A stretch of 64,000 nucleotides of DNA, taken from NCBI RefSeq assembly GCF_026151205.1, contig NC_087074.1, positions 5,890,001-5,954,000 on the forward strand, written 5' to 3'. Source of the stretch: Bolinopsis microptera (taxonomy: Eukaryota > Ctenophora > Tentaculata > Lobata > Bolinopsidae). Below are positions 16,846 to 58,239 of the stretch, piece after piece. Numbering within the stretch: the first letter of the stretch is position 1; each line of letters opens with the position of its first letter. A model generated the notes under the pieces. The model searched no databases and was not told the DNA's origin. It saw only the letters and a program-made list of their open reading frames with translations. A program made the translations under genes and the position numbers.

Positions 16846-18150
16846 AGAATTTAAGGGTCAAGGAGGCCCGGTGAAGGTTTTATGGAGGTACATACATCAC
16901 ATAATACGTAATCAAACCCCCCCCCCCTGGTTCATGAATTCTTCCATTCCTAGTTCTAGACAAAGTGTTTTATCTTATGATCAGATTATAATCTCCTCGG
17001 ATCCCAATCTTATTCCGGAGAAATCAGTACGGTAAGGTAAATTGATCGAAGCAAACCAATATCGCGAGAAGAGGTCACGTCAACCTGGTGAGCACAGTGG
17101 ATATCCTTACTGCATACGGCTAGTAAAACAAGGATTTGAAACTGTGGGGTCCGTGCAGACCCACCTACCTGTGGCTAATGCTCTAATTTACTAAAACAAT
17201 ACATTCTAGGAGGAAAGTAACAGTTCCTGATTGAACTAAGCAGGGCCGGTGCACTCCAGTTAGACTTTTCATTCCACTTGTTCCGCGGAAGGAATATTAA
17301 TAGACAAGGATTTCGTAGAAATTTTTAATTGAATTCCACAATCAAAATTCCAACTGCTAAGGATTCTTTCAAAGAAATTTCTAATAAAACAGTAAACTCA
17401 TATCAGTGCCAACAATTTAAAATGAAATTAAATATAAATCTAGGTACAACATTTTAGTTGTTTGTCCCGAGAAATTGATTGGGTATTTTAAATCAAAATA
17501 AAATAAAATTAAGAAACTGTTAATAAATAACGGTTTTACATAAACCCTTACCCGACCCCAATCCAAACCATAACTACCTTATCGGTCATAATTATCACAT
17601 TACTTTCACGCTGAAGATAATAATGTCCGTAAATAATAAAGTCCGTAATTATTCCCATTAATTTTAGTGTGTATCCCTGCATAGTGCATATGTGTAGATA
17701 TGTGTGTAGCCGATTACTATATTAGTTTATTAGTATAAACCAGGGCAAATATAATCACTCATGCACTCCTCAGTCACATTCTAGAGTTCAGAAAAAGAGT
17801 AAAACACTTAGCTAACAAATCACCAGCCGCGGGGTCTGAAAACTTTTACAAAATGTCCCCAATGTCTTTTTCAACATAAACTGATCAATATACTTTACAA
17901 GTACTATTAGAGTATTAATAAAGGTTAAGACTAACTAGTTGGAGAGTTTCAGGAAGATGAACAGATATCTTTTCTAATTTAAATTACTCTATAAAAAAGT
18001 CATGTTTTTTTGGAGCACCCTGTATCAAAGTAATTGATAAATTACCTAGTCTTTTCTTGTCTTCTTCGAGCTTTCGATGAGTCATTAGGCTAAGTAGACA
18101 TTTTCATGATACAGTAAAACCTTTTATAGCGGGTCTCGGGAGAAACGGAA
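16846..18150 (+). repeat. Conserved duplication block c (unit 1)
   Basis: This non-coding block leads into the minisatellites. Landmarks are TGGTTCATGAATTCTTCC, CAAACCAATATCGCGAGAAG, GGATATCC followed by TTACTGCA, ATAATGTCCGTAAATAATAA, ATGTGTGTAGCCGATTAC (about 17698), TTTTTTGGAGCACCCTGTAT, and CAGTAAAACCTTTTATAGCG (18113). The last phrase after TA resembles a pogo/Tigger-type terminal repeat. It preserves the empty insertion site of the 7.2-kb element found in unit 2. Confidence 0.72.
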
Positions 18151-18154
18151 AGTG

Positions 18155-18410
18155 CACGATATAGAGGAGGAAAAGAAGAGGCCCGGTATAGAGGAGGAAA
18201 AGAAGAGGCCCGGTATAGAGGAACAAAAGAAGAGGCCCGGTATAGAGGAGGAAAAGAAGAGGCCCGGTATAGAGGAGGAAAAGAAGAGGCCCGGTATAGA
18301 GGAGGAAAAGAAGAGGCACGATATAGAGGAGGAAAAGAAGAGGTCCGGTATAGAGGAGGAAAAGAAGAGGCCCGGTATAGAGGAGGAAAAGAAGAGGCCC
18401 GGTATATCCA
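18155..18410. repeat. 27-bp minisatellite (about 9 copies, unit 1)
   Basis: The repeat unit is GAGGAGGAAAAGAAGAGGCC plus CGGTATA. The period is a multiple of three, so all copies read through (plus-strand EEEKKRPGI, minus-strand PGLFFSSSI). The array grows out of a short pogo-like end (CAGTAAAACC...TATAGAGG) and ends at TATATCCAAGTACCCGGTAT. Confidence 0.9.
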
Positions 18411-19344: not shown

Positions 19345-20288
19345 TTAGTTACTGGGGAAGAAACCGGGAAGTAATCTGGAACTAGGGAGAACAGGGTCAG
19401 CGAAGTTCAGGGGCTTTACAAATGTGAGAGGCTTCACGAATGGTAAAGGCTTAACAAAAATAGGGCCTCCAACGCTACTGTTTTGGAAGTAATTCGAAGC
19501 CTGGCCGCTTTCGTGAATAAAATGTAATTTCTCTTCAATGCCGTCCCGCTGATACGGTTTTTCACCGGTATGAGTCATCTGATGGTGAACTAGGTTTGAT
19601 TTTGGCTTGCACTGTAAGAACATTCAGAGCATTTATACGGTTTTTCACCGGTATGAGTACGCTGATGGTAAACCAGGTTTGCTTTTCGGCTTGCAGTGTA
19701 TGAACATTCAGAGCATTTGAAAGGTTTTTCACTGGTATGGATCCGCTGATGGCAAACCAGGTTTGCTTTTTGATGGGCACTGTAGGAACATTCAGAGCAT
19801 TTATACGGTTTTTCACCGGTGTGGGTCCGCTGATGGCAAACCAGGTTTGATTTTTTGCTTGCACTGTAGGAACATTCAGAGCATTTGAAAGGTTTTATGC
19901 AAATATGAACGCTATGGTGGGAAACTAAAGTTGATTTTCTGGAAGCACTGTAGGAACATTTAGAGCGAATGTAAGCATTTTCACTGGCATGAACCCATTG
20001 GTGTGGAACTAATGCTGATTCCTGATTAAGACAATACAACTGAGAAACACCATTCGAATACACTTCTGATTTGATTAACAAGTTATCTTCCTCCTTCTTA
20101 ATCTCTGTCTTGATCAATTCTGGTGGAAAACTTTCTAATTCCTCCATCTTCATCTCATCTTTAAAGTCTGGAACATTTTCTTCCTCCTTCTTAATCTCTG
20201 TCTTGATCAATTCTGGTGGAAAACTTTCTATCTCTTCCATCTTCATCTCATCTTTAAAATTAAAGTCTGGAACATTTTTCTGCTCCAT
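19345..20288 (-). pseudogene. C2H2 zinc-finger gene, copy 1 (frameshifted, three fingers deleted)
   Basis: The start ATG at 20286-20288 and the stop region at 19345 match those of the intact copies. Loss of one T in a T run near 19600 shifts the frame within the last finger: the first 232 codons end at 19590, and the rest of the protein continues in another frame to 19345. Relative to the copies at 34.5 and 44.2 kb, 84 residues (exactly three 28-residue fingers) are missing, apparently by recombination between the two similar degenerate fingers. Three canonical CxxC-x12-HxxxH fingers remain plus the broken one. The N-terminal duplicated acidic repeat and the C-terminal FVKPL repeats are still present. 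It is probably inactive or encodes a truncated protein. Confidence 0.85.
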
Positions 20289-20589
20289 TTCACTAAAAAG
20301 TCAACGACCTTACAAAAGTTGCCTTTTAACAATCGTCATTAGAAAATAAAATGAATATAAGTTCGAGATACTAAATTCCAGTGTTAATTTGGAGAGCTTT
20401 TCGTGTAAAAGTAGTAACCCAGAAAATAGAAAATAAGCGAAGAAGGTTAACAAATTGGATACAAGTTTGACCAAAGGTTAACAAGGTATTGCTGATAGTG
20501 TTGATATTAATAAGGCAGCTCATGTTACCAAGGTAACATGTGTTAGTGTTACCAGGATTATGTAATATAAACAGGGTCATAGTAACTGT
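20289..20589 (-). other. Conserved upstream region of zinc-finger copy 1
   Basis: These 300 bases upstream of the ATG are nearly identical in copies 1, 2 and 3 and absent from copy 4. An acceptor-like TTTTTAG lies 4 bases before the ATG. A GGTAACA-type inverted phrase (TGTTACCAAGGTAACA, about 20523-20538) lies about 245 bases upstream. No TATA box can be assigned with confidence. Confidence 0.45.
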
Positions 20590-23120: not shown

Positions 23121-23125
23121 GTGTA

Positions 23126-23555
23126 GGGGGGTGGGGATCATGTTATTTTTTGTCCGTTTTTGTCCGTTTTTGTCCGTTAATTTTTGTCCGTTTTGAAAAT
23201 ATAGCTGCCAAACGGACAAAAACGGACAAAAACGGACAAAAATTGTAACTTTTGATTTAAATTTTCTCCACAATTTGTAACAGGCTATCTGCAGAAATGG
23301 GTAGCCCGGTTAATGACCATGGTCCTTTCTCAAACTTTTAATCTTCAATTAGGCACAAAGAATAGTCTACACATTTTTTAATAACATAAAAAGGGATGAA
23401 AAGTTTTATTACTGGAGAGTAAAACTTTGTTAAACACAAAGATTCTTGAGCACATTTTGAGTCAGACTCAAATGCGCTTAAAAACATTTTAGTATATAAC
23501 AATAAATTATGTTAACAATAACACCAACAATAATTATAAATTGAACAAATTATTG
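23126..23555. other. Left end and unique interior of element A
   Basis: After the terminal TGTCCG hairpin (to about 23240), about 310 bases of ordinary AT-rich sequence follow with no reading frame of note. The polypurine DNA then begins. This is the only long non-repetitive part of the element. Confidence 0.55.
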
Positions 23556-25870
23556 AGAGATGAAAGAGAGGAAAAGGAGGAGGGGGGACTGAAGAGGGGG
23601 ACTGAGGAGGGAGAGGAGGGGGGCTGAGGAGGAGTGAGACTGAGAAGGAGAACTGAGGAGGAGGAATGAATAGGAGGAGGAGAAGAAGGACTCAAGAGGA
23701 GGAGGACCCAAGAGGAGGAGGACCCAGGAAAAGGCCCCATGAGGAGGACTGGGGAGGAGGAGGACCGATGAGGACTGATGAGGACTGATAAAGAGGACTA
23801 AGGACAAGGAGGAGGAGGAGGAGGAGAAGGACTGAGGAGTGAGGAGGAGGACTGATGAGGAGAAGGAGGTGTATGAGGAGGATGAGGAGGAGAAAGGAGA
23901 TAAACGATGAGGATAAGGAGGACTGAGGAGGAGGACTGGTGAAGAGGACTGATGAGGAGGAGGACTGAGAAGGGGAGGACTTAGGAGGACTGAGGAGGGG
24001 AGGACTTCGGAGGAAGAGGAGGATTGAGCAGGAGGAGGACTGAGGAGTAGAAGGAGGAAGAAGACTGAGGAGGATCAGGAGGACCTAGGAAGAGGAGGAA
24101 GAGGAGGAGGACTGAGGAGGAGAAGGAGGACCCAAGAGGAGGAACCAGGAAGAAGAGGAGGAGGAGGACTGAGAAGGAGGAGTGAGACTGAGAAGGAGAA
24201 CTGGGGAGGAGGAATGAATAGGAGGAGGAGGAGAAGAAGGACTCAAGAGGAGGACTGAGGAGGAGGAGGACTAAGGAGAAGGATGAGGAGGAGGACCCAA
24301 GAGGAGGAGGATTCAAGAGGAGGAGGACCCAGGAAAAGGCCCCAAAAGGAGGACTGGGGAGGAGTAGAAGGAGGAAGGACTGATGAGGACTGATGAGGAC
24401 TGATAAAGAGGACTAAGGACGAGGAGGAGGAGGAGGAGGAGGAGGAGAAGGAGTGAGCAGTGAGGAGGAGGACTGACGAGGAGGAGGTGTATGAGGAGGA
24501 TGAGGAGGAGAAAGGAGATGAAAGAAGGAGATGAAGGATGAGGATAAGGAGGACTGAGGAGGAGGACTGGTGAAGAGGACTGATGAGGAGGAGGACTGAG
24601 AATGGGAGGACTTAGGAGGACTGAGGAGGGGAGGACTTGGGAGGAAGAGGAGGATTGAGGAGGAGGAGGACTGAGGAGTAGAAGGAGAAAGAAGACTGAG
24701 GAGGATCAGGAGGACCCAGGAGGAGGAGGAAGAGGAGGAGGACTGAGGAGGAGAAGGAGGACCCAGGAGGAGGAACCAGGAAGAAGAGGAGGAGGAGGAC
24801 TGAGAAGGAGGACTGAGAAGGAGAAGGAGGACTGATGAGGAGGATGAGGATGAGGAGGAGGGTGACTGGGGAAAGGATTGAGGAGGAGGACGACTGAGGA
24901 GGAGGAAGAGGAGAAGGACTGAGGAGGAGAAGGACTGAGGAGAAGGAAGAGGAGGAGGACTGAGGAGGAGGACCCAGGAGGAGGAGGACACAGGAAAAGG
25001 CCCCAGGAGGAGGAGGATGACTTGGGAGGAGGAGGACTGATGAGGACTGATGAGGAGGAGAAGTAAGTGGATGAAGAGGATGAGGAGGACTGAGGAGGAG
25101 GACTGGTGAGCAGAAGGAGGAGGACCCAGGAGGAGAAGGAGGAGGAGGAGGATAACTGAGGAGGAGGAGAAGGACTGAGGAGGAGAAGAGGGATCCAGGA
25201 GGAGAACCCAGGAGGAGGAGGAGGAGGACTGAGGAGGAGGACTAAGGAGAAGGAGGACTGATGAGGAGGATGAGGAGGAGGGTGACTGGGGAAAGGACTG
25301 AGAAGGACTGAGGAGGAGAATGCGGACTGAGGAGGAGGAACCAGGAAAAGGAGGAGGAGGACTGAAGAGGAGGACTGAGAAGGCGAAGGAGGACTGATGA
25401 GGAGGATGAGGATGAGGAGGAGGGTGACTGGGGGAGGACTGAGGAGGAGGGTGACTGGGGGAGGACTGAGGAATATGAGGAAGACTGAGGAGGAGGAGGA
25501 AGAGGAGAAGGACTGAGGAGGAGAAGGACTGAGGAGGATGACTGAGGAGGAGGAGGACTGAAGAGGAGGAGGAGGACTGAGAAGGAGGAGGACTGAGGAG
25601 GAGGAGGACTGAGGAAGAGGAGGAGGAGGAGGAGGAGTGAATAGGAGGAGGAGGGGGACTGGGCAGGACTGAGGAGGAGGACTGAGGAAAAGGATGAGGA
25701 GGAGGACTGAGAAGGAGGACTGACCTGAGGAGGAGAACTGAGGACTGAGGAGGAAGAGGAGGAGGATGAAGAGGAGGTGGACCCAAGAGGAGGAGGTCCC
25801 AGGAGGAGGACCCAGGAGGAGGACTCAGGAGGAGGTGGAGGATGACTGAGGAAGACTGAGGAGGAGGAGG
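23556..25870 (+). repeat. Polypurine block 1 (GGA/AGG-rich, about 2.3 kb)
   Basis: The plus strand is almost wholly A and G, in runs of GAGGAGGAGGA separated by ACTG, ACCC or ATG. Minus-strand frames (up to 487 codons of Ser, Pro and Leu) are by-products. Two long sub-blocks (about 23560-24420 and 24190-24720) share phrases such as CCAGGAAAAGGCCCC and AACCAGGAAGAAGAGGAGG, showing tandem duplication. Confidence 0.9.
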
Positions 25871-26030
25871 AAGCATCTAAATATTATTTCCATTTTTGTT
25901 ATTTTTTGTCCGTTTTTGTCCGCTCTATTTTTTGTCCGTTTTGGGGGGGGGTGTCATGTCCGTCTATGTCCGCCTATGTCCTGTCCTTTTTGGATTCTAT
26001 GAGACAACGGACGTGTTTTTTGGGACATTG

Positions 26031-26170
26031 GCGGACACGGACGGACATTGGCGGACTCGGACGGACATTGGCGGACTCGGACGGACATTTGCGGACCCGG
26101 ACGGACATTGGCGGACTCGGACGGACATTGTTGGACATTAGCGGACATTGGTGGACATTAGCGGACAAAC
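26031..26170 (+). repeat. 20-bp minisatellite (GCGGACTCGGACGGACATTG)
   Basis: About five copies with single-base variants, then shorter GCGGACATTGGTGGACATTA words. It lies just inside the left end of element C. Confidence 0.85.
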
Positions 26171-26282
26171 ATTTTGAGAATTTTTCGCAACTTCTATGTA
26201 TTATAATTTTGTACAAAACAAACGACTTATTAATCATACTAAAGCTATTAATAGCTTTAACTTAATATATCAAATTATATAG
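26171..26282. other. AT-rich spacer inside element C
   Basis: About 110 bases of AT-rich sequence with AAAGCTATTAATAGCTTT, an 18-bp palindrome at about 26240-26257. No coding content. Confidence 0.5.
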
Positions 26283-27775
26283 GGACCCAGGAAAAGGCCC
26301 TAGGAGGAGGAGGAGGAGGAGGAGGACTGGGGAGGAGGAGGACTGTTGAGGACTGATGAGGAGGACTGAGGACGAGGACGAGGACGAGGACGAGGACTGA
26401 GGAGGGGAGGAGGAAGAGGACTGGGGAGGATCAGGAAGACCCAGGAGGAGGACCCAGGAGGAGGAGGAGGAGGACTGAGGAGGATGACTCAGGAGGAGGA
26501 GGACTCAGGAGAAGGACTCAGGAGCACTGAGAAGGAGGAGGACTGAAGAGTACTGAAGAGTACTGAGGAGGATGGCTGAGGAGGATGGCTGAGGAGGATG
26601 GCTGAGGAGGATGGCTGAGGAGGATGACTGAGGAGGATGACTGAGGAGGTTGACTGAGAGGGAGGAGGAGGATCAGGAAGACCCAGGAGGAGGAGGAGGA
26701 GGAGGACCCAGAAGGAGGACCTAGGTGGAGGAGGAGGAGAACTGAGGAGGATGACTGAGGAGGAGGAGGACTCAGGAGGAGGACTGAGAAGGACTGAGAA
26801 GGAAGAGGACTGAGGAGGAGGAGGAGAAGGACTCAGGAGGAGAAGGAGGACACAGGAGGAGGAGGACTCAGGAGGAGGAGGACTCAGGAGGAGGAGGACC
26901 CAGGAGGAGGACCCAGGAAAAGGCCCCAGGAGGAGGAGGAGGACTGGGGAGGAGGAGGACTGTTGAGGACTGATGAGGAGAACTGAGGACGAGGAGGAGG
27001 AGTAGGAGGAGGACTGAGGAGGGGAGGAGGAAGAGGACTGGGGAGGGTCAGGAAGACCCAGGAGGAGGACCCAGAAGGCAGAAGGAGGAGGAGGAGGAGG
27101 ACCCAGGAGGAGGAGGAGGACTGAGGAGGACTGAGGAGGAGGACTGACGATGACTGAGAAGGAGGAGGACTGAGGAGTACTGAGGAGGATGGCTGAGGAG
27201 GATGGCTGAGGAGGATGGCTGAGGAGGATGACTGAGAGGGAGGAGGAGGAGGACTCAGGAGGAGGACTCAGGAGGAGGACTTAGGAGAAATGAGAAGTAG
27301 GACTGAGGAGAACTGAGGAGGAGGAGGAGGAGGACTGAATAGGAGGAGGAGAAGGAGGGGGACTGGGAGAGGACTTAGGAGGAGGAGGACTGAAGAGAAG
27401 GATGAGGAGGAGGACTGAGGAGGAGGACTGAGGACCGAGGAGGAAGAGGAGGAGGATGAAGAGGAGGAGAAGTACCCAGGAGGAGGAGGACTGAGGAGGA
27501 CTGAGGAGGATGGCTGAGGAGGATGACTGAGAGGGAAGAGAAGGAGGAGGAGGAGGAGGACTCAGGAGGAGAAGGAGGAGGACTGGGGGAGGAGGATGGA
27601 GGAGGATGGAGGACTGAGGAGAAGGATGAGGAGGAGGACTGAGGAGGACTGAGGACTGAGGAGGAAGAGGAGGAGGATGAAGAGGAGGATGAAGAGGAGG
27701 AGGAGGACCCAGGAGGAGGACCCAGGAGGAGGACTCAGGAGGAGGAGGACTGGGGAGGAGGAGGACTGTTGAGGA
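26283..27775 (+). repeat. Polypurine block 2
   Basis: Same composition as block 1, with local tandem GAGGATGGCTGAG repeats near 26565-26640 and 27180-27240. It is interrupted by element D at 27776. Confidence 0.9.
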
Positions 27776-27780
27776 CTGAT

Positions 27781-28184
27781 GGGCCCCCTCTCTTGTGTAA
27801 AAGCGACATGAACCCTAAAAGGTGACCAGAAGCGACCCAAAAGCGACCCAAAAGCGACCAGAATTAGAAGCGACCTAAAAGCGACCAAAAAGCGACCAGA
27901 AGCGACCAAAAGCGACCAAAAAGCGACTAGAAGCGACCAAAAAGCGACTAGAAGCGACCAGAAGCGACTAAAAAGCGACTAGAAGCGACCAAAAGCGACT
28001 AGAAGCGACCAAAAGCGACCAGAAGCGACCAAAATTTAAAAAGCGACCTGTGCAGAAGCGACCAAAAAGTGGCCTCAACGTGAAAAAAGCGACCAAAAGT
28101 CGACGTTGTTAAAAAAAAGTGACCCAAAAGGGCCACTTTTCGTCATCAAAAGCGACGGTCGCTTTTACACAAGAGAGGGGGCCC
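27781..28184. mobile_element. 404-bp MITE (D) with 27-bp perfect terminal inverted repeats and AGCGACC core
   Basis: It is flanked by CTGAT at 27776-27780 and 28185-28189. The terminal inverted repeats are perfect: the left begins GGGCCCCCTCTCTTGTGTAA and runs to 27807; the right mirrors it from 28158 to 28184. The interior is a degenerate array of AAAAGCGACC/AGAAGCGACC words (about 20 copies). It inserted into the polypurine block of element C. No protein is encoded. Confidence 0.85.
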
Positions 28185-28189
28185 CTGAT

Positions 28190-29285
28190 GAGGAGGACTG
28201 AGGACGAGGAGGAGGAGTAGGAGGAGGACTGAGGAGGGGAGGAGGAAGAGGACTGAGGAAGATCAGGAAGACCCAGGAGGAGGAGGACGAAGAGTAGGAG
28301 GACGAAGCATCTAAATGTTATTTCCATTTTTGTCCGTTTTTGTCCATTTTTGTACGCTCTATTTTTTGTCCGTTTTTAAAATATAGGGTACCGAACGGTG
28401 GAGGAGGACTGAGGAGGGGAGGAGGAAGAGGACTGGGGAGGATCAGGAAGACCCAGGAGGAGGACCCAGGAGGAGGAGGAGGAGGAGGACCCAGGAGGAG
28501 GATGAGGACTGAGGAGGACTGAGGAGGAGGACTGACGATGACTGAGAAGGAGGAGGACTGAGGAGTACTTAGGAGGATGGCTGAGGAGGATGGTTGAGGA
28601 GGGTGACTGAGAGGGAGGAGGAGGAGGACTCAGGAGGAGGACTTAGGAGGAAGTGGAGGAGGAGGACTCAGGAGGAGGACTTAGGAGAAATGATAAGGAA
28701 GACTGAGGAGGAGGAGGAGGAGGAGGAGGACTGAATAGGACGAGGAGAAATAGGGGGACTGGGAGAGGACTGAGGAGGAGGAGGACTGATGAGAAGGATG
28801 AGGAGGAGGACTGAGGAAGAGGACTGAGGACCGAGGAAGAAGAGGAGGAGGATGAAGAGGAGGAGGAGGACCCAGGAGGAGGAGGACTGAGGAGGAGGAC
28901 TGAGGAGGATGGCTGAGGAGGATGACTGAGAGGGAAGAGGAGGAGGAGAAGGAGGAGGAGGAGGAGGAGGACTGAATAGGAGGAGGAGGAGGACTGGGGG
29001 AGGACTGAGGAGGAGGATGGAGGACTGAGGAGAAGGATGAGGAGGGGGACTGAGGAGGACTGAGGAGGAAGAGGAGGAGGATGAAGAGGATCAGGAGGAG
29101 GAGGACCCAGGAGGAGGACTCAGGAGGAGGAGGAGGACTGGGGAGGAGGACTGTTGAGGACTGATGAGGAGGACTGAGGACGAGGAGGAGGAGTAGGAGG
29201 AGGACTGAGGGGAGGAGGAAAAGGACTGAGGACGATCAGGAAGACCCAGGAGGAGGAGGAGGAAGAGTAGGATGAGGAAGCATCT
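28190..29285 (+). repeat. Polypurine block 3 with a TGTCCG junction at 28306-28400
   Basis: Polypurine DNA as before. At 28306-28400 and again at 29279-29395 it passes through AGCATCTAAATGTTATTTCC and TTTTTGTCCG repeats to a GGGTACCGAAC terminal-like phrase. The second ends CATGATCCCCC, resembling the right end of element A. Confidence 0.85.
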
Positions 29286-29582
29286 AAATGTTATTTCCAT
29301 TTTTGTCCGTTTTTGTCCATTTTTGTCCGCTCTATTTTTTGTCTGTTTTGAAAATATAGGGTACCGAACAGACAAAAAACATGATCCCCCTATAACAGCA
29401 AAAATTGAACATTTTATTTAGCAATTTAGGTGTCCATTAATGTCTGCTAATGTCCGCTAATGTCCGTCTATGTCCGCCTATGTCCGCCTATGTCCGTCTA
29501 TGTCCGCCTATGTCCGCCTATGTCCGCCTATGTCCTGTCCTTTTTGGATTCTATGAGACAAGCGGACATAGACGGACGTGAC

Positions 29583-29583
<1 letters not shown>
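29286..29583. repeat. TGTCCG-rich segment with 10-bp minisatellite (ATGTCCGCCT)
   Basis: About ten copies of ATGTCCGCCT/ATGTCCGTCT occupy 29445-29545, followed by the right subterminal region of element C. Confidence 0.85.

Positions 29584-29620
<37 letters not shown>
29584..29620 (+). repeat. Poly-C run of 37 (right end of element C)
   Basis: Thirty-seven consecutive C precede the GTTTT target duplication. This is the longest homopolymer in the window. Confidence 0.9.
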
Positions 29621-29621
<1 letters not shown>

Positions 29622-29679
29622 TTTTGATAATATAGGGTTCCGAACGGAAAAAACGGATAAAAAACAGGATCCCCCTGGA

Positions 29680-30170
29680 GGAGGAGGAGGAGAAGGATGA
29701 CTGAGGAGGAGGACTGAGGAGGACTGAGAAGGAGGAGGACTGAGGAGTACTGAGGAGGATCGCTGAAGAGGATGGCTGAGGAGGATGGCTGAGGAGGATG
29801 ACTGAGGAGGATGACTGAGAGGGAGGAGGAGGAGGACTGAGAAGGAGGAGGAGAAAGAGGACCCAGGAGGAGGACTCAGGAGAAAGAGGAGGAGGACTCA
29901 GAAGGAGGAATGAGGAGGACTCAGAAGGAGGAATGAGAAGGAGGAGAACTGAGGAGGAGGAGGAGGAGGACTGAATAGGAGGAGGAGGGGGACTGGGGAG
30001 GAGGAGTACTGACGAAAAGGATGAGGAGGACTGAGGACTGAGGAGAAGGACTGAGGACTGAGGAGGAAGAGGAGGAGGAGGAGGAGGAGGAGGAGGAGGA
30101 GGAGGAGGAGGAGGAGGAGGAGGAGGAGGAGGAGGAGGAGGATGAGGAGGAGGAGGAGGAGGAGGAAGCA
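29680..30170 (+). repeat. Polypurine block 4
   Basis: It ends in about 100 bp of uninterrupted GGA triplets (30064-30170) before the final TGTCCG terminal hairpin of element A. Confidence 0.9.
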
Positions 30171-30326
30171 TCTAAATGTTATTTCAATTTTTGTTATTTT
30201 TTGTCCGTTTTTGTCCGTTTTTGTCCGTTTTTGTCCGTTTTTGTCCGCTTTATTTTTTGTCCGTTTTGAAAATATAGCTGCCAAACGGACAAAAACGGAC
30301 AAAAAAACATGAGCCCCCCCCCCCCC

Positions 30327-30829
30327 GTGTAGCCGATTACTATATTAGTTTATTAGTATAAACCAGGGCAAATATAATCACTCATGCACTCTTCAGTCAC
30401 ATTCTAGAGTTCAGAAAAAGAGTAAAACACTTAGTAACAAATCACCAGCCTTTTTTAGTGTGTGTTTTATCTGAAAACTTTTACAAAATGTCCCCAATGT
30501 CTTTTTCAACATGAACTGACCAAAATACTTTACAAGTACTATTAGAGTATTAAAAAAGGTTAAGACTATCTAGTTGGAGAGTTTCGTGAAGATCAGATAT
30601 CTTTTCTAATTTAAATTACTCATAATAAAAAAGTCATGTTTTTTTGGAGCACCCTGTATCAAAGTAATTGATAAATTACCTAGTATTTTCTTGTCTTCTT
30701 CGAGCTTACGATGAGTCATTAGGCTAAGTAGACATTTTCATGATACAGTAAAACCTTTTATAGCGGGTCTCGGGAGAAACGGAGAGTGCACGATATAGAG
30801 GAGGAAAAGAAGAGCCCCTTATTTGGACG
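30327..30829 (+). repeat. Conserved duplication block c, resumed (unit 2)
   Basis: Continues from the GTGTA target duplication with AGCCGATTACTATATTAG through TTTTTTGGAGCACCCTGTAT to CAGTAAAACCTTTTATAGCG at 30746 and a single 27-bp unit, then diverges at AGAGCCCCTTATTTGG. Confidence 0.75.
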
Positions 30830-32360: not shown

Positions 32361-32471
32361 CCGGTATACATTGGCACAGTTGATGGTATATGTAATTATT
32401 AGATCATACTTCTAGTTTCGGGATAGCCTGTAGCAGACAACGCCCGATATTAATGTATCTACAGACTTATA

Positions 32472-34456
32472 TGGACCAGGTGAGAAGGTGAGAGGAGCTG
32501 CAAGGTGGGCAGGTGAAACAACAGATGGACCAGGTGAGAAGGTTGATAGGAGCTGCAAGGTGAGCAGGTGTAACAATACATGGACCAGGTGAGAAGGTTG
32601 ATAGGAGCTGCAAGGTGAGCAGGTGTAACAACAGATGGACCAGGTGAGAAGGCGAGAGGAGCTGCAAGGTGAGCAGGTGTAACAACAGATGGACCAGGTG
32701 AGAAGGTTGATAGGAGCTGCAAGGTGAGCAGGGTAACAACAGATGGACCAGGTGAGAAGGTGAGAGGAGCTGCAATGTGAGCAGGTGTAACAACAGATGA
32801 ACCAGGTGAGAAGGTGAGATGAGCTGCAAGGTGAGCAGGTGTAACAACAGATCGACCAAGAGAGAAGGTGAGAAGGTGAGAGGAGCTGCAAGGTGAGCAG
32901 GTGTAACAACAGATGAACCAGTTGAGAAGGTGAGAAGGTGAGAGGAGCTGCAAGGTGAACAGGTGTAACAACAGATGGACCAGGTGAGATGGTGAGAAGG
33001 TGAGAGGAGCTGCAAGGTGAGCAGGTGTAACAACAAATGGACCAGGTGAGAAGGCGAGAGGAGCTGCAAGGTGAGCAGGTGTAACAACACATGGACCAGG
33101 TGAGAAGGTTGATAGGAGCTGCAAGGTGAGCAGGTGTAACAACAGACGGACCAGGTGAGAAGGCGAGAGGAGCTGCAAGGTGAGCAGGTGTAACAACAAA
33201 TGGACCAGGTGAGATGGTGAGATGAGCTGCAAGGTGAGCAGGTGAAACAACAGATGGACCAGGTGAGAAGGTTGATAGGAGCTGCAAGGTGAGCAGGTGT
33301 AACAACACATGGACCAGGTGAGAAGGTGAGAGGAGCAGCAAGGTGAGCAGGTGTAACAACAGATGGACCAGGTGAGAAGGTTGATAGGAGCTGCAAGGTG
33401 AGCAGGTGTAACAACAGATGGACCAGGTGAGAAGGCGAGAGGAGCTGCAAGGTGAGCAGGTGTAACAACAGATGGACCAGGTGAGAAGGTTGATAGGAGC
33501 TGCAAGGTGAGCAGTTGTAACAACACATGGACCAGGTGAGAAGGTGAGAGGAGCTGCAAGGTGAGCAGGTGTAACAACAGATGGACCAGGTGAGAAGGTT
33601 GATAGGAGCTGCAAGGTGAGCAGGTGTAACAACAGATGGACCAGGTGAGAAGGCGAGAGGAGCTGCAAGGTGAGCAAGTGTAACAACAGATGGACCAGGT
33701 GAGAAGGTTGATAGGAGCTGCAAGGTGAGCAGGTGTAACAACAGATGGACCAGGTGAGAAGGTGAGAGGAGCTGCAAGGTGAGCAGGTGTAACAACAGAT
33801 GAACCAGGTGAGAAGGTGAGATGAGCTGCAAGGTGAGCAGGTGTAACAACAGATCGACCAAGAGAGAAGGTGAGAAGGTGAGAGGAGCTGCAAGGTGAGC
33901 AGGTGTAACAACAGATGAACCAGTTGAGAAGGTGAGAAGGTGAGAGGAGCTGCAAGGTGAACAGGTGTAACAACAGATGGACCAGGTGAGATGGTGAGAA
34001 GATGAGAGGAGCTGCAAGGTGAGCAGGTGTAACAACAGATGGACCAGGTGAGAAGGTGAGAGGAGCTGCAAGGTGAGCAGGTGTAACAACACATGGACCA
34101 GGTGAGAAGGTGAGAGGAGCTGCAAGGTGAGCAGGTGTAACAACAGATGGACCAGGTGAGAAGGTGAGAGGAGCTGCAAGGTGAGCAGGTGTAACAACAG
34201 ATGGACCAGGTGAGAAGGTGAGAGGAGCTGCAAGGTGAGCAGGTGTAACAACAAATGGACCAGGAGAGAAGGTGAGAGGAGCTGCAAGGTGAGCAGGTGT
34301 AACAACAGAAGGACCAGGTGAGAAGGTGAGAGGAGCTGCAAGGTGAGCAGGTGTAACAACAGATGAACCAGGTGAGAAGTTGAGAGGAGCTGCAAGGTGA
34401 GCAGGTGTAACAACAGATGGACCAGGTAAGAAGGTGAGAGGAGCTGCAAGGTGAGA
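32472..34456. repeat. 54-bp minisatellite (about 37 copies) 3' of zinc-finger copy 2
   Basis: Same unit as at 18528-19328, with variants GGTTGATAGGAGCTG, GGCGAGAGGAGCTG and CAGGGTAACAAC that change the length to 53-55. A block of about 0.9 kb (about 32700-32990) recurs at about 33730-33990, showing internal duplication. Long minus-strand frames of 504-660 codons are by-products of the period. Confidence 0.92.
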
Positions 34457-34471: not shown

Positions 34472-35668
34472 TTAGTTACTGGAGAAGAAACCGGGAAGTA
34501 ATCTGGAACTAGGGAGAACAGGGTCAGCGAGGTTCAGGGGCTTTACAAATGTGAAAGGCTTTACGAATGGTAAAGGCTTAACAAAAATAGGGCCTCCAAC
34601 GCTACTGTTTTGGAAGTTATTCGAAGCCTGGCCGCTTTCGTGAATAAAATGTGATTTCTCTTCAATGCCGTCCCGCTGATACGGTTTTTCACCGGTATGA
34701 GTCATTTGATGGTGAACTAGGTTTGATTTTTGGCTTGCACTGTAAGAACATTCAGAGCATTTATACGGTTTTTCACCGGTATGAGTACGCTGATGGTAAA
34801 CCAGGTTTGCTTTTCGGCTTGCAGTGTATGAACATTCAGAGCATTTGAAAGGTTTTTCACTGGTATGGATCCGCTGATGGCAAACCAGGTTTGCTTTTTG
34901 ATGGGCACTGTAGGAACATTCAGAGCATTTATACGGTTTTTCACCGGTGTGGGTCCGCTGATGGCAAACCAGATTTGATTTTTTGCTGGCACTGTAGGAA
35001 CATTCAGAGCATTTGAAAGGTTTTATGCAAGTATGAACGCTATGGTGGGAAACTATAGTTGATTTTTTGCAAGCACTGTAGGAACATTTAGAACGAATGT
35101 AAGCATTTTCACTGGTATGAGTCCGATGATGTTGAACCAGGCTTGATTTTCGGTTTGCACTGTAGGAACATTCAGAGCATTTGAAAGGTTTTTCACCGGT
35201 GTGGGTCCGCTGATGGCAAATCAGGTTTGATTTTTTGCTGGCACAGTAGGAACATTCAGAGCATTTGAAAGGTTTTATGCCAGTATGAACGCTTTGGTGG
35301 GAAACTAAAGTTGATTTTCTGGAAGCACTGTAGGAACATTTAGAGCGAATGTAAGCATTTTCACTGGCATGAACCCATTGGTGTGGAACTAATGCTGATT
35401 CCTGATTAAGACAATACAACTGAGAAACACCATTCGAATACACTTCTGATTTGATTAACAAATTATTTTCCTCCTTCTTAATCTCTGTCTTGATCAATTC
35501 TGGTGGAAAACTTTCTAATTCCTCCATCTTCATCTCATCTTTAAAGTCTGGAACATTTTCTTCCTCCTTCTTAATCTCTGTCTTGATCAATTCTGGTGGA
35601 AAACTTTCTAATTCTTCCATCTTCATCTCATATTTAAAATTAAAGTCTGGAACATTTTTCTGCTCCAT
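34472..35668 (-). CDS. C2H2 zinc-finger protein, copy 2 (398 aa, intact)
   Basis: A probable nuclear DNA-binding protein. Residues 5-36 and 38-67 are two copies of a 30-residue acidic repeat (NVPDFKDEMKMEELESFPPE core); with residues 71-75 they supply five IKxE motifs, the consensus for SUMO attachment. A degenerate finger region starts near 85. Six canonical CxxC-x12-HxxxH fingers start at Cys136, 164, 220, 248, 276 and 304, joined by TGEKP/TSEKP linkers. Fingers at 107-128 and 191-212 have lost the first zinc cysteine (IRSKC). The C-terminus has three FVKP[LF] repeats. Helix position +3 is Asn in five of six canonical fingers, so the array looks recently amplified. Coding is a single exon. 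The 54-bp array begins 15 bases after the stop. Confidence 0.92.
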   Translation of the reverse strand: MEQKNVPDFNFKYEMKMEELESFPPELIKTEIKKEEENVPDFKDEMKMEELESFPPELIKTEIKKEENNLLIKSEVYSNGVSQLYCLNQESALVPHQWVHASENAYIRSKCSYSASRKSTLVSHQSVHTGIKPFKCSECSYCASKKSNLICHQRTHTGEKPFKCSECSYSANRKSSLVQHHRTHTSENAYIRSKCSYSACKKSTIVSHHSVHTCIKPFKCSECSYSASKKSNLVCHQRTHTGEKPYKCSECSYSAHQKANLVCHQRIHTSEKPFKCSECSYTASRKANLVYHQRTHTGEKPYKCSECSYSASQKSNLVHHQMTHTGEKPYQRDGIEEKSHFIHESGQASNNFQNSSVGGPIFVKPLPFVKPFTFVKPLNLADPVLPSSRLLPGFFSSN

Positions 35669-35969
35669 TTCACTAAAAAGTCAACGACCTTACAAAAGTT
35701 GCCTTTTAACAATCGCGTCACTAGAAAATAAAATGAATATAAGTTCGAGATACTAAATTCCAGTGTTAATTTGGAAAGCTTTTCATGTAAAAGTAGTAAC
35801 CCAGAAAATATTAGAAAATAAGCGAAGAAGGTTACCAAATTGGATACAAGTTTGACTAAAGGTTAACAAGGTATTGCTGATAATGTTGATATTGATAAGG
35901 CAGCTCATGTTACCAAGGTAACACGTGTTAGTGTTACCAGGATTATGTAATAACAGGGTCATAGTAACT
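35669..35969 (-). other. Conserved upstream region of zinc-finger copy 2
   Basis: Nearly identical to 20289-20589 and 45443-45739. It contains the ACCAAGGTAACA phrase and ends at the CGCTA repeat. No certain promoter element. Confidence 0.45.
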
Positions 35970-37776: not shown

Positions 37777-39140
37777 TCATCATCCGTTTTGTGTAGTATT
37801 ACTTGTTATCAGGGAAAGTTTGAAGCAAACCAATATCGCGAGAAGAGGTCACGTCAGGATGCATCAGGAGGTAACTAAGGCTAGCTAATATAACATTTGA
37901 ACCGAAAGCAAGAGTACTTTCTTGACGAAAGTAAAATACAAGGAAACACTATCGAGAAAACCATAGTATATAGCTAACTCTAGCAGGGGAGTGTTGGTTA
38001 TGTGCCTAACCTGGTGAGCACAGTGGATATCCTTGCTGCACGGCTAGTTTAACAAGGAATTGAAACTGTGGGGTCTGTGCAGACCAACCTACCTGTGGCT
38101 AATGCTCTAATATACTAAAACAATACATTCTAGGAGGAAAGTAACAGTTCCTGATTGAACTTAGCAGAGCCGGTGCACTATCAGTATCAGTTAGACTTTT
38201 CTTTCCACTTGTTCCGCGGAAGGAGTATTGAGAGGCCAGGAGTGTTCCACAGAAGCAGTATTAATAGACAAGGATTTCGTAGAAATCAAAATTCCAACTG
38301 CTGATAATTCTTTCAAAGAAATTTCTAATAAAACAGTAAACTCAGTGCCAACAATTTAAAATGAAATTAAATATAAATCGAGGTACAACATTTTAGTTGT
38401 TTGTCCCGAGAAATTGATTGGGTATTTTAAATCAAAATAAAATAAAATTAAGAAACTGTTAATAAATAACGGTTTTACATAAACCCTTACACGACCCCAA
38501 TCCAAACCATAACTACCTTATCGATTATCGGTCATAATTATCACATTACTTTCACACTGAAGATAATAATGTCCGTAAATAATAAAGTCCGGTAATTATT
38601 CCCATTAATTTTAGTGTGTGTCCCTGCATAGTGAATATGTGTAGATATGTGTGTACTCGATTACTATATTAGTTTATTAGTATAAACCAGGGCAAATATA
38701 ATCACTCATGCACTCCTCAGTCACATTCTAGAGTTCAGAAAAAGAGTAAAACACTTAGTAACAAATCACCAGCCGCGGGGTCTGAAAACTTTTACAAAAT
38801 GTCCCCAATGTCTTTTTCAACATGAACTGACCAAAATACTTTACAAGTACTATTAGAGTATTAAAAAAGGTTAAGACTAACTAGTTGGAGAGTTTCAGGA
38901 AGATCAGATATCTTTTCTAATTTAAATTACTCTATAAAAAAGTCATGTTTTTTTGGAGCACCCTGTATCAAAGTAATTGATAAATTACCTAGTATTTTCT
39001 TGTCTTCTTCGAGCTTTCGATGAGTCATTAGGCTAAGTAGACATTTTCATGATACAGTAAAACCTTTTATAGCTGGTCTCGGGAGAAACAGAGAGTGCAC
39101 GATATAGAGAAACCTCGGTATAGAGTGTTTCATACACCCC
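37777..39140 (+). repeat. Conserved duplication block c (unit 3)
   Basis: Begins with TACTTGTTATCAGGGAAAGT and jumps directly to CAAACCAATATCGCGAGAAG, so the LINE scrap and poly-C part are deleted here. It continues through ATAATGTCCGTAAATAATAA, the empty site GATATGTGTGTACTCGATTA (about 38644), and CAGTAAAACCTTTTATAGCT (39055). No coding sequence. Confidence 0.72.
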
Positions 39141-39222: not shown

Positions 39223-39339
39223 AGTATCCGATATACATTGGCACAGTTGATGGTATATGTAATTATTAGATCATACTTCTAGTTTCGGGATAGCCTGTAG
39301 CAGACAACGCCCGATACTAATGTATCTATAGACTTATAT

Positions 39340-42300
39340 GGGCCAGGTGAGAAGGTGAGAGGAGCTGCAAGGTGAGCAGGTGTAACAACAGATGGACCAG
39401 GTGAGAAGGTTGATAGGAGCTGCAAGGTGAGCAGGTGTAACAACAGATGGACCAGGTGAGAAGGTTGATAGGAGCTGCAAGGTGAGCAGGTGTAACAACA
39501 GATGGACCAGGTGAGAAGGTTGATAGGAGCTGCAAGGTGAGTAGGTGTAACAATAGATGTACCAGGCGAGAAGGTGAAAGGAGCTGCAAGGTGAGCAGGT
39601 GTAACAACAGATGGACCAGGTGAGAAGGTTGATAGGAGCTGCAAGGTGAGCAGGTGTAACAACAGATGGACCAGGTGAGAAGGTTGATAGGAGCTGCAAG
39701 GTGAGCAGGGTAACAACAGATGTACCAGGTGAGAAGGTTGATAGGAGCTGCAAGGTGAGCAGGTGTAACAACAAATGTACCAGGCGAGAAGGTGAGAGGA
39801 GCTGCAAGGTGAGCAGGGTAACAGCAGATGGACCAGGCGAGAAGGTGAGGGGAGCTGCAAGGTGAAAAGGTGAAACAACAGATGTACCAAGCGAGAAGGT
39901 GAGAGGAGCTGCAAGGTGAAAAGGTGAAACAACAGATGTACCAGGCGAGAAGGTGAGAGGAGCTGCAAGGTGAGCAGGTGTAACAACAGATGTACCAGGC
40001 GAGAAGGTGAGAGGAGCTGCAAGGTGAGCAGGGTAACAACAGATGGACCAGGTGAGAAGGTGAGAGGAGCTGCAAGGTGAGCAGGTGTAACAACAGATGT
40101 ACCAGGCGAGAAGGTTGATAGGAGCTGCAAGGTGAACAGGTGTAACAACAGATGTACCAGGCGAGAAGGTGAGAGGAGCTGCAAGATGAGCAGGTGTAAC
40201 AACAGATGGACCAGGCGAGAAGGTGAGAGGAGCTGCAAGGTGAGCAGGTGTAACAACAGATGGACCAGGTGAGAAGGTGAAAGGAGCTGCGAGTTGAGCA
40301 GGTGTAACAACAGATGTACCAGGCGAGAAGGTGAGAGGAGCTGCAAGGTGAGCAGGTGTAACAACAGATGGACCAGGTGAGAAGGTGAGAGGAGCTGCAA
40401 GGTGAGCAGGTGTAACAACAGATGTACCAGGTGAGAAGGTGAGAGGAGCTGCAAGGTGAGCAGGTGAAACAACAGATGTACCAGGTGAGAAGGTGAGAGG
40501 AGCTGCAAGGTAAGCAGGGTAACAACAGATGTACCAGGCGAGAAGGTTGATAGGAGCTGCAAGGTGAGCAGGTGTAACAACAGATGGACCAGGTGAGAAA
40601 GTGAAAGGAGCTGCAAGGTGAGCAGGTGTAACAACAGATGTACCAGGCGAGAAGGTGAGAGGAGCTGCAAGGTGAGCAGGTGAAACAACAGATGGACCAG
40701 GTGAGAAGGTTGATAGGAGCTGCAAGGTGAGCAGGTGAAACAACAGATGGACCAGGTGAGAAGGTTGATAGGAGCTGCAAGGTGAGTAGGTAAAACAACA
40801 GATGGACCAGGTGAGAAGGTGAGAGGAGCTGCAAGGTGAGCAGGTGTAACAACAGATGTACCAGGCGAGAAGGTGAGAGGAGCTGCAAGGTGAGCAGGTG
40901 AAACAACAGATGGACCAGGTGAGAAGGTTGATAGGAGCTGCAAGGTGAGCAGGTGAAACAACAGATGGACCAGGTGAGAAGGTTGATAGGAGCTGCAAGG
41001 TGAGCAGGTGTAACAACACATGGACCAGGTGAGAAGGTGAGAGGAGCTGCAAGGTGAGTAGGTGAAACAACAGATGGACCAGGTGAGAAGGTGAGAGGAG
41101 CTGCAAGGTGAGCAGGTGTAACAACAGATGTACCAGGCGAGAAGGTGAGAGGAGCTGCAAGGTGAGCAGGTGAAACAACAGATGGACCAGGTAAGAAGGT
41201 TGATAGGAGCTGCAAGGTGAGCAGGTGAAACAACAGATGTACCAGGCGAGAAGGTGAGAGGAGCTGCAAGGTGAGCAGGGTAACAACAGATGGACCAGGT
41301 GAGAAGGTGAGAGGAGCTGCAAGGTGAGCAGGTGTAACAACAGATGTACCAGGCGAGAAGGTTGATAGGAGCTGCAAGGTGAGCAGGTGTAACAACAGAT
41401 GTACCAGGCGAGAAGGTGAGAGGAGCTGCAAGGTGAGCAGGTGTAACAACAGATGGACCAGGCGAGAAGGTGAGAGGAGCTGCAAGGTGAGCAGGTGTAA
41501 CAACAGATGGACCAGGTGAGAAGGTGAAAGGAGCTGCGAGTTGAGCAGGTGTAACAACAGATGTACCAGGCGAGAAGGTGAGAGGAGCTGCAAGGTGAGC
41601 AGGTGTAACAACAGATGGACCAGGTGAGAAGGTGAGAGGAGCTGCAAGGTGAGCAGGTGTAACAACAGATGTACCAGGTGAGAAGGTGAGAGGAGCTGCA
41701 AGGTGAGCAGGTGAAACAACAGATGTACCAGGTGAGAAGGTGAGAGGAGCTGCAAGGTAAGCAGGGTAACAACAGATGTACCAGGCGAGAAGGTTGATAG
41801 GAGCTGCAAGGTGAGCAGGTGTAACAACAGATGGACCAGGTGAGAAAGTGAAAGGAGCTGCAAGGTGAGCAGGTGTAACAACAGATGTACCAGGCGAGAA
41901 GGTGAGAGGAGCTGCAAGGTGAGCAGGTGAAACAACAGATGGACCAGGTGAGAAGGTTGATAGGAGCTGCAAGGTGAGCAGGTGAAACAACAGATGGACC
42001 AGGTGAGAAGGTTGATAGGAGCTGCAAGGTGAGTAGGTAAAACAACAGATGGACCAGGTGAGAAGGTGAGAGGAGCTGCAAGGTGAGCAGGTGTAACAAC
42101 AGATGTACCAGGCGAGAAGGTGAGAGGAGCTGCAAGGTGAGCAGGTGAAACAACAGATGGACCAGGTGAGAAGGTTGATAGGAGCTGCAAGGTGAGCAGG
42201 TGAAACAACAGATGGACCAGGTGAGAAGGTTGATAGGAGCTGCAAGGTGAGCAGGTGTAACAACACATGGACCAGGTGAGAAGGTGAGAGGAGCTGCAAG

Positions 42301-44228
42301 GTGAGTAGGTGAAACAACAGATGGACCAGGTGAGAAGGTGAGAGGAGCTGCAAGGTGAGCAGGTGTAACAACAGATGTACCAGGCGAGAAGGTGAGAGGA
42401 GCTGCAAGGTGAGCAGGTGAAACAACAGATGGACCAGGTAAGAAGGTTGATAGGAGCTGCAAGGTGAGCAGGTGAAACAACAATGGACCAGGTGAGAAGG
42501 TTGATAGGAGATGCAAGGTGAGCAGGTGTAACAACAGATGGACCAGGTGAGAAAGTGAGAGGAGCTGCAAGGTGAGCAGGTGTAACAACAGATGCACCAG
42601 GTGAGAAGGTTGATAGGAGCTGCAAGGTGAGCAGGTGTAATAACAGATGGACCAGGTGAGAAGGTGAGAGGAGCTGCAAGGTGAGCAGGTGTAACAACAG
42701 ATGTACCAGGCGGGAAGGTGAGAGGAGATGCAAGGTGAGCAGGTGAAACAACAGATGGACCAGGTGAGAAGGTGAGAGGAGCTGCAAGGTGAAAAGGTGT
42801 AACAACAGATGGACCAGGTGAGAAGGTGAGAGGAGCTGCAAGGTAAGCAGGTGTAACAACAGATGTACCAGGCGAGAAGGTGAGAGGAGCTGCAAGGTGA
42901 GCAGGTGTAACAAAAGATGTATTAGGTGAGAAGGTTGATAGGAGCTACAAGGTGAGCAGGTGTAACAACAGATGGACCAGGTGAGAAGGTTGATAGGAGC
43001 TGCAAGGTGAGCAGGTGTAACAACAGATGTACCAGGCGAGAAGGTGAAAGGAGCTGCAAGGTGAGCAGGTGTAACAACAGATGTACCAAGTGAGAAGGTG
43101 AGAGGAGCTGCAATGTAAGCAGGTGTAACAACAGATGGACCAGGTGAGAAGGTGAGAGGAGCTGCAAGGTGAGCAGGTGTAACAACAGATGGACCAGGTG
43201 AGAAGGTGAGAGGAGCTGCAAGGTGAGCAGGGTAACAACAGATGGACCAGGTGAGAAGGCGAGAGGAGCTGCAAGGTAAGCAGGTGTAACAACAGATGTA
43301 CCAGGTGAGAAAGTGAGAGGAGCTGCAAGGTGAGCAGGTGAAACAACAGATGTACCAGGCGAGAAGGTGAGAGGAGCTGCAAGGTGAGCAGGTGAAACAA
43401 CAGATGGACCAGGTGAGAAGGTGAGAGGAGCTGCAAGGTGAGCAGGTGTAACAACAGATGTACCAGGCGAGAAGGTTGATAGGAGCTGCAAGGTGAGCAG
43501 GTGTAACAACAGATGTACCAGGCGAGAAGGTGAGAGGAGCTGCAAGGTGAGCAGGTGTAACAACAGATGGACCAGGTGAGAAGGTGAGAGGAGCTGCAAG
43601 GTGAGCAGGTGTAACAACAGATGTACCAGGTGAGAAGGTGAGAGGAGCTGAAAGGTGAGCAGGTGTAACAACAGATGTACCAGGCGAGAAGGTGAGAGGA
43701 GCTGCAAGGTGAGCAGGTGAAACAACAGATGTACCAGGCGAGAAGGTGAGAGGAGCTGCAAGGTGAGCAGGTGAAACAACAGATGTACCAGGTGAGAAGG
43801 TGAGAGGAGCTGCAAGGTAAGCAGGGTAACAACAGATGTACCAGGCGAGAAGGTTGATAGGAGCTGCAAGGTGAGCAGGTGTAACAACAGATGGACCAGG
43901 TGAGAAGGTGAAAGGAGCTGCAAGGTGAGCAGGTGTAACAACAGATGTTCCAGGCGAGAAGGTGAGAGGAGCTGCAAGGTGAGCAGGTGAAACAATAGAT
44001 GGACCAGGTGAGAAGGTTGATAGGAGCTGCAAGGTGAGCAGGTGTAACAACAGATTGACCAGGTGAGCAGGTGTAACAACAGATGGACCAGGTGAGAAGG
44101 TGAGAGGAGCTGCAAGGTGAGCAGGTGTAACAACAGATGTACCAGGCGAGAAGGTAAGAGGAGCTGCAAGGTGAGCAGGTGAAACAACAGATGGATCAGG
44201 TGAGAAGGTGAGAGGAGCTGCAAGGTGA
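39340..44228. repeat. 54-bp minisatellite (about 90 copies) 3' of zinc-finger copy 3
   Basis: The largest array, about 4.9 kb. It has a clear higher-order duplication: marker variants GCTGCGAGTTGAGCAGGTG (40288 and 41536), GAGAAAGTGAAAGGAGCTG and GTAAGAAGGTTGATAGGAGC each recur at an offset of about 1247 bp, so a block of about 23 units was copied in tandem. Minus-strand frames reach 1574 codons only because the period is a multiple of three and lacks stops. Confidence 0.93.
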
Positions 44229-44245
44229 GACTTGGAATGTACTGG

Positions 44246-45442: not shown

Positions 45443-45739
45443 TTCACTAGAAAGTCAACGACCTTACAAAATTGCCTTTTAACAATCGTCACTAGAAAAT
45501 AAAATGAATATAAGTTCGAGATACTAAATTCCAGTGTTAATTTGGAGAGCTTTTCGTGTAAAAGTAGTAACCCAGAAAATAGAAAATAAGCGAAGAAGGT
45601 TAACAAATTGGATACAAGTTTGACTAAAGGTTAACAAGGTATTGCTGATAGTGTAGATATTGATAAGGCAGCTCATGTTACCAAGGTAACATGTGTTAGT
45701 GTTACCAGGATTATGTAATATAAACAGGGTCATAGTAAC
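45443..45739 (-). other. Conserved upstream region of zinc-finger copy 3
   Basis: Matches the upstream regions of copies 1 and 2, with small deletions near 45470. Confidence 0.45.
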
Positions 45740-57500: not shown

Positions 57501-57504
57501 TTGA

Positions 57505-58235: not shown

Positions 58236-58239
58236 CAAG

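Follow-up and report, generated by a model that had tools for sequence, protein, structure and literature searches.

Nested families of non-autonomous inverted-repeat transposons with G-rich ends in the ctenophore Bolinopsis microptera

Three inverted-repeat elements, here called A, C and D, form a nested set in a 64,000-nucleotide stretch of Bolinopsis microptera DNA (the window; positions 5890001-5954000 of the 21.3-Mb contig C3). They are real mobile elements and recur elsewhere in the searched genome (264.65 Mb in 232 contigs, with 97.5% of the bases in 13 of them). The reading that best accounts for them, with a probability of about 0.55, is that they represent three non-autonomous (class II) families, which a DDE transposase from another place in the genome mobilises in trans. 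A Merlin-like (IS1595-type) gene is the likeliest source of this enzyme, at somewhat less than even odds; hAT or another lineage may also serve.

The order of nesting and the element coordinates proposed in the first-pass annotation are borne out, as are the direct repeats at the borders of all three elements (Table 1). The same holds for the empty site of A: when its flanks are joined, the resulting sequence matches three sister units right through the junction (17295-18184, 38259-39109 and 54909-55736, with 95, 93 and 84% identity), each carrying a single GTGTA, with some small gaps away from the junction. Inverted ends are present in A (44 nt, 82% identity), C (38 nt, 89%) and D (27 nt, 100%), and all of them start with G, as had been described; D, however, has no homopolymer run.

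Table 1. Position of the elements, their borders and their internal features in the window.
Feature	Position	Strand	Basis or remark
Element A, outermost; 44-nt inverted ends 23126-23169 / 30283-30326	23126..30326	.	end comparison and genome-wide pattern matches
GTGTA to the left of A (target duplication); GTGTAG including one run G	23121..23125	.	border reading
Right target duplication of A	30327..30331	.	border reading
Palindromic subterminal hairpin, left end of A: (TTTTTGTCCG)n versus (AAACGGACAA)n	23147..23242	.	
Palindromic subterminal hairpin, right end of A	30198..30312	.	
GGA/GGACTGA purine minisatellite filler of A	23577..25871	+	sequence
Further stretches of A filler	26302-27765, 28190-28302, 28400-29278, 29677-30166	+ (stated for 23577..25871)	sequence
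Element C, within A; inverted ends of 38 nt, with G9 on the left and C37 on the right	25943..29620	.	end comparison and pattern matches
GTTTT to the left of C (target duplication); CCGTTTTG readable on either side including run letters	25938..25942	.	
Right target duplication of C	29621-29625	.	border reading
Subterminal 10/20-bp repeats (GGACATTGGC...), left end of C	26023..26167	.	counterpart 29438-29535
A-like right terminus buried in C	29279..29391	+	sequence; present too in C copy L048
Element D, within C; perfect inverted ends of 27 bp, GGGCCCCCTCTCTTGTGTAAAAGCGAC; AAAAGCGACC repeats in the interior	27781..28184	.	
CTGAT to the left of D (target duplication); CTGATG including the following G	27776..27780	.	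border reading
Right target duplication of D	28185-28189	.	border reading
Empty site of A, sister unit 1	17708..17709	.	flank-junction alignment
Empty site of A, two other sister units	~38657 and 55311/55312	.	flank-junction alignment

Each end of A consists of a G run, followed by NTCATGTT and by a long palindrome of (TTTTTGTCCG)n and its complement. The smallest complete unit read (L129) measures 103 bp and is a single palindrome between a G run and a C run, flanked on both sides by TAACCA (CTAACCA with the run letter). Another short unit (L103) has 124 bp, and a deletion form of 47 bp (L130) is flanked on each side by TAAATGT. The larger copies span 1.5 to 5.1 kb and that of the window 7.2 kb, and they are mostly built of GGA/GGACTGA minisatellite. 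A coding interior was considered and rejected: the long frames on the minus strand of the GGA arrays are of low complexity and are open because one strand of the array has no stops. Among the non-low-complexity frames of at least 90 aa in the 16 A copies whose right end was accepted, none was transposase-like by eye.

The ends of C are GGGG-TGTCAYGTCCGTCTATGTCC plus 10/20-bp subterminal repeats. Between them lie GGA filler and an A-like right terminus, both in the window copy and in copy L048, and this composite recurs at other loci; from its sequence, C thus appears to move together with the A-like end that it encloses. D, 404 bp long, consists largely of AAAAGCGACC repeats and has the fixed terminus GGGCCCCC. 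In four D-ended copies (L040, L044, L045 and L046), GGA filler is 72-78% identical to that of A over 310-1455 nt, as compared with the low-complexity filter off. The terminal sequences of A, C and D differ, and the plan is common to them: a G-rich end, 10-bp subterminal repeats and GGA filler, the latter found in copies of all three under the same setting. All the features of a MITE-like non-autonomous transposon are present, namely inverted ends, a target duplication, multiple copies and no transposase noticed in the copies read.

Genome-wide, the A-type pattern matches 95 times (46 on the plus and 49 on the minus strand), 78 times in its left-end form and 17 times in a T-run form, 13 of the latter being confined to two clusters. 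The exact left-end pattern of C has 343 matches, and 19 D termini were found with at most 3 mismatches; the reversed-pattern controls gave 0 matches each for A, C and D. Among 40 scored left ends of each, identity is 93-100% for A, measured against the window copy (which is one of the 40), and 87-100% for C, which points to fairly recent activity, as judged from sequence. The A cluster at C13:2583368-2586584 has a spacing of 393-637 bp, mostly ~430, and the part read is an A half-unit taken into a satellite; a second A cluster, at C5:20574346-20576281, has a spacing of 415-542. Element pieces that seed satellites, and tandem repeats within an inverted-repeat element, are also features of the minisatellite-bearing MITE of Porphyromonas gingivalis (PMC4596501) and of the foldback element Tetris (PMC4079207), two elements of other hosts set beside A here by the available portions of their descriptions.

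A constant 5-bp target duplication, the basis on which the first-pass annotation had argued for novelty, fails in the genome-wide comparison of copies set beforehand as able to refute it: the mode is 7 bp in A and 6 bp in C, and D has 5-6 bp. Exact duplications in the 30 A-type copies read at both ends measure 8 bp in 3, 7 bp in 12, 6 bp in 8 and 5 bp in 3, with none in 4. In C (n = 9), seven copies have 6 bp, the window copy 5 and L048 three letters, and the six D loci gave 5, 6, 6, 5 and none in two. Exact duplications of at least 5 bp are thus present at 26/30 A-type, 8/9 C and 4/6 D loci, and duplications of exactly 5 bp at 3/30, 1/9 and 2/6. The window copies represent the short end of the range; when the adjoining G or C of the run is included, A reaches up to 6, C up to 8 and D up to 6. 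A flanking G or C can go unseen beside an element that starts with G and ends with C, so that the true duplication may exceed the reading; with up to two run letters per side included, a length of 8 or 9 is read in 9 of 27 A copies.

Among the four A copies without an abutting duplication, L016 has a 7-base repeat three bases off the run and L103 a 6-base repeat one base off it; C2c has no repeat at its flanks and L133 has inverted flanks. The A sample derives from the 40 left ends scored in the first search, of which 20 were fetched with 9.5-10 kb and 16 gave an accepted right end. The dropped ones are L012, L013 and L015, which have no right end, and L022, whose sole candidate was taken to be the buried A-like end of a C element. 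Two right ends ~1 kb apart with the same flank were counted once (L028), L020 has a second, inner candidate, and the border of L019 was placed by hand. The 30 copies comprise these 16, the window copy, nine further pairs (a tenth, C12, was dropped for its all-G flank), L103 and three short copies. The C copy L049, with one end only, and the D records with one readable end were left out, and D record C13:818851, having the same flanks as C13:744919, was counted once with it.

When flanks were paired across different copies, at least 5 bases were shared in 3 of 702 pairs for A and 0 of 72 for C, against 24/27 and 8/9 of the true pairs. With true pairs this far above mismatched ones, the short target duplication at A and C is real and beyond chance, though it is not 5 bp. 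In the 24 A copies with a duplication, T is the commonest base at -7 (12 copies), and A at -2 (11, with T in 10) and -1 (17); this target consensus is weak and post hoc, and it is not relied on.

G and C runs of 7 to ~50 letters occur at both ends of A and C copies. Their presence at many separate loci speaks against a single assembly error, which had been named beforehand as a possible refutation, even if the run lengths may be inexact. It is extremely improbable that G runs and short repeats in purine-rich satellite DNA created the elements by chance or through misassembly. The interior is of low complexity and such runs are error-prone, as this explanation would have it; however, flanks match at many loci, the empty site is clean, and neither the reversed patterns nor the mismatched pairs reproduce the signal. 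For A and C this explanation is already refuted, run length aside.

A long copy coding for a transposase between such termini, part of the check proposed in the first-pass annotation, was looked for and none was found. Interior probes placed 700 bp inside 20 of the ~33 A ends without a listed right end gave no autonomous A: 13 were GGA-type, one A/G-rich (L105) and six of another kind (L106, L115, L116, L117, L121 and L123). The starts read at the seven non-GGA places are five A left ends, the complete short copy L129 and the deletion form L130, and no coding frame was noticed there by eye. The 19 D termini likewise gave no autonomous partner.

The genome was covered with four transposase models (hAT, MULE, Merlin and P). 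Positions were compared for 77/95 A places (clustered ones merged, small contigs left out), 99/343 C places, 148 of the 150 hAT matches listed, 87/88 MULE matches and 58/58 Merlin matches; among these, no Merlin, hAT or MULE match lies inside A or C. There is no PF12762 match within 8 kb of the same 77 A and 99 C places either. MULE, with 88 matches in the genome, was rejected as a partner, since none of those compared falls within A or C.

Of the four families, hAT has the most matches (at least 150; 150 of 365 candidates were listed). Like the present elements, non-autonomous hAT elements have short inverted ends, short variable targets and an abundant transposase source in the genome. A, C and D could then be hAT-derived, with an 8-bp duplication whose outer bases have been overwritten by the growing G/C run, so that 5-7 remain readable; this is unlikely. 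The preferred hAT target is nTnnnnAn, which the T at -7 and the A at -2 and -1 in A loosely resemble, while the C targets (NNNATW) are outside this preference. Duplications of hAT are 8 bp according to the available part of one account (PMC2874221), a length read strictly in 3/30 A copies, with C mostly at 6 and D at 5-6.

In 20 hAT 3' flanks (~700 bp each, from the 150 matches listed), no A, C or D terminus was found, nor any array of at least 3 units with a period of 8-12; one flank (L063) has 3.3 units of a 16-bp repeat. Another, L072, does carry a G13 run, followed by TCCAACTAC and AAAAAATACG repeats, yet this is unlike the ends of A, C or D. L071, a further candidate for a G-run hAT end, was set aside: by eye, it is a different element, whose ends measure 25 bp and whose duplication does not exceed 3-4 bp. 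Within 8 kb of A and C ends there is one hAT match each, versus 0.69 and 0.89 expected, both outside the element. For hAT as the partner, the 20 flanks and the position comparison gave nothing above chance.

The P superfamily offers another parallel in the Drosophila foldback element Galileo, with 7-bp duplications, three copies with 8 bp, foldback-like ends, tandem repeats in the ends of one copy, and transposase-less copies, as far as the available part of its description goes (PMC4168063). An origin of A, C and D from such P-superfamily foldback elements, with long repetitive inverted repeats, is nevertheless very unlikely. By eye, the targets do not fit GTANTAC, the target consensus is another one, C and D mostly have 5-6 bp, and that part of the Galileo description (PMC4168063) contains no G runs. 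The P-type model PF21787 gave 0 matches in the genome, a weak point since the control genomes gave none either.

Merlin comes closer. The available part of its description (PMC8101967) gives 5'-GG termini, inverted repeats of 24-462 bp, an 8-9-bp duplication and one copy with internal tandem repeats. A, C and D start with G, and their inverted ends (44, 38 and 27 nt) fall within that range. G-rich ends do have a precedent: Merlin termini are 5'-GG in that description (PMC8101967), and Merlin transposases are present in the genome. Their 58 matches include groups whose members score nearly alike and have the same open-frame length, four with 337 aa (the group at C3:1520155) and six with 318 aa (the group at C5:242875). 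In three Merlin 3' flanks (801 bp each), an 11-bp tandem array was found in L135 (28 units of TGCCCGAGGTG) and L136 (5 units of TGTTGCCTTAA) and none in L137; two Merlin groups thus have such arrays downstream of the gene. Arrays of at least 3 units with a period of 8-12 are thus present in 2/3 Merlin flanks, 0/20 hAT flanks and 5/5 A/C/D end regions given, by a criterion framed post hoc, after L135 and L136 had been seen. These 11-bp arrays and the 5'-GG ends of Merlin make a Merlin-like enzyme the best candidate.

Several observations speak against a Merlin source. The arrays begin ~190 to 300 bp past the transposase stop, and no G or C run of at least 5 is present within the 801 bp of L135 and L136; A, C and D have long G homopolymers. 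The likeness is one of plan, drawn from Merlin 3' flanks (n = 3) and not from terminal sequence. No IS1595-type DDE transposase was seen in the element, from the 16 A copies examined by eye and the PF12762 positions. The duplication is strictly 8 bp in 3/30 A copies (8 or 9 in 9/27 with run letters), has a mode of 6 in C and is 5-6 in D. As the 8-9 bp of Merlin are not the rule here, A, C and D are left without assignment to a superfamily.

This bears on the proposal of an undescribed non-autonomous group. The nested, multi-copy and non-autonomous nature of the elements, their G-rich ends and the lack of placement in a named superfamily stand, whereas the 5-bp argument for novelty does not; with this premise wrong, the case for a group beyond every known superfamily is deprived of its chief argument. 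Transib has CAC-type ends, which are absent from A, C and D, and its 5-bp duplication is not the rule in them. It is doubtful, though worth weighing, that the elements belong to an undescribed DDE lineage that ends in homopolymer G and duplicates 6-8 bp, its autonomous copy having been lost, left out of the assembly or missed by the models. Consistent with it are the 19 D termini without an autonomous partner, as well as the G-run termini and the 7/6-bp mode, unlike those of Merlin and hAT in the available descriptions and unlike Transib. However, the absence of a partner rests on pattern, position and four transposase models, and non-autonomous elements often have little in common with their partner. 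G-run elements of this kind in ctenophores have no description in the literature searched, a set without Repbase entries and most subscription papers.

For three non-autonomous families moved in trans, the following course can be proposed. A transposase from elsewhere would bind the 10-bp subterminal repeats near each end, cut at the boundary of the G run and excise the element, which would then insert into AT-rich targets by a staggered cut of ~6 to 8 bp. The terminal G runs would lengthen and shorten by replication slippage and blur the base at the junction. Such slippage would explain both the lengths of 7 to ~50 and the loss of one or two bases at the edge of the duplication. The A unit itself may measure no more than 103 bp (L129, one palindrome); in larger A, C and D copies, GGA minisatellite lies between the ends.

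The terminal bases of a DNA transposon are normally among its most constrained parts. A more speculative and quite improbable reading is a cut-and-paste lineage in which homopolymer G forms the very ends; these might be recognised by their structure (G-quadruplex or hairpin) more than by their sequence, and the stagger would be a loose one of 6-8 bp; A, C and D would then have converged on this end type and traded GGA filler. Elements that tolerate a G run of 7 to ~50 where the cut is made would reveal how an end without fixed length is located by a transposase, and an end of variable length would account for the variable duplication lengths. The GGA filler that the elements have in common suggests that a minisatellite passes between transposon families. 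A, C and D belong to the ctenophores, the same group as Mnemiopsis leidyi, in which more than 90% of loop promoters hold a DNA transposon insertion, according to the available part of the report on that species (PMC12221973).

The sister units that keep the uninterrupted insertion target of the outermost G-rich element, A, are interspersed among four duplicated open frames, similar to one another and all on the reverse strand (see the table). Two of the four frames were searched, and both matched C2H2 zinc-finger models; the remaining two begin with a near-identical peptide. Among these zinc-finger repeat units are also situated the three stretches of a long minisatellite that contains open frames; the third stretch (57194-58294) has a 9-residue repeat. 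The window further holds two LINE-like retroelements.

Coordinates of repeat units, retroelements and pattern clusters
Feature	Location	Strand	Remark
Similar duplicated open frames	window 19590-20300, 34472-35680, 44246-45454, 59147-60514	-	
Long minisatellite	window 39338-44229, 32471-34455, 57194-58294		period ~54 bp; open frames
LINE-like retroelement, first	window 3272-9009	+	reverse transcriptase + endonuclease model match
LINE-like retroelement, second	window 47980-51817	+	reverse transcriptase
LINE-type retroelement, L013	L013:4642-5907 with L013:694-3928	-	domain-model matches
LINE-type retroelement, L022	L022:5640-9998	+	domain-model matches
Second cluster of A-type pattern matches	C5:20574346-20576281		

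Near A-type ends, the loci L013 and L022 each carry a LINE-type retroelement, in which a first frame with a 2OG-Fe(II) oxygenase (AlkB-like) domain (PF13532; 1.7e-17 and 5.5e-16, respectively) is followed by endonuclease and reverse transcriptase. AlkB has been reported in retroelements of orchids, of the Ty3/Gypsy type (excerpt of PMC9289625).

Beside the two candidate transposase sources, other repeats are visible. The 3' flank of one hAT match (L072, C8:10267611-10268330) contains a G13 run, ~500 bp past the hAT domain, and then TCCAACTAC and AAAAAATACG repeats; this may be a terminus belonging to a further family with G runs, the fourth. Adjoining another hAT match (L071) is an element in its own right: its ends, GGGGTCGTTCACATATTACGTAATC, are 25 bp long, C runs lie inside it, and any duplication is 3-4 bp at most. 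Downstream of two Merlin transposase genes lie 11-bp tandem arrays, one of 28 units (L135:413-731) and one of five (L136:369-422).

Two A-type loci are unusual. The palindrome L133 (G000:C12:7361540-7361780) is flanked by mutually inverted copies, not direct repeats, pointing either to a foldback-type inverted duplication or to an assembly palindrome. In L028, two right ends of A lie ~1 kb apart with an identical flank after each, an arrangement such as a tandem duplication of that end and its flank would leave.

Finally, in L134, part of the A-type cluster C13:2583368-2586584, halves of the A unit recur at a spacing of 393-637 bp, mostly ~430. These halves represent a transposon part incorporated into a satellite.
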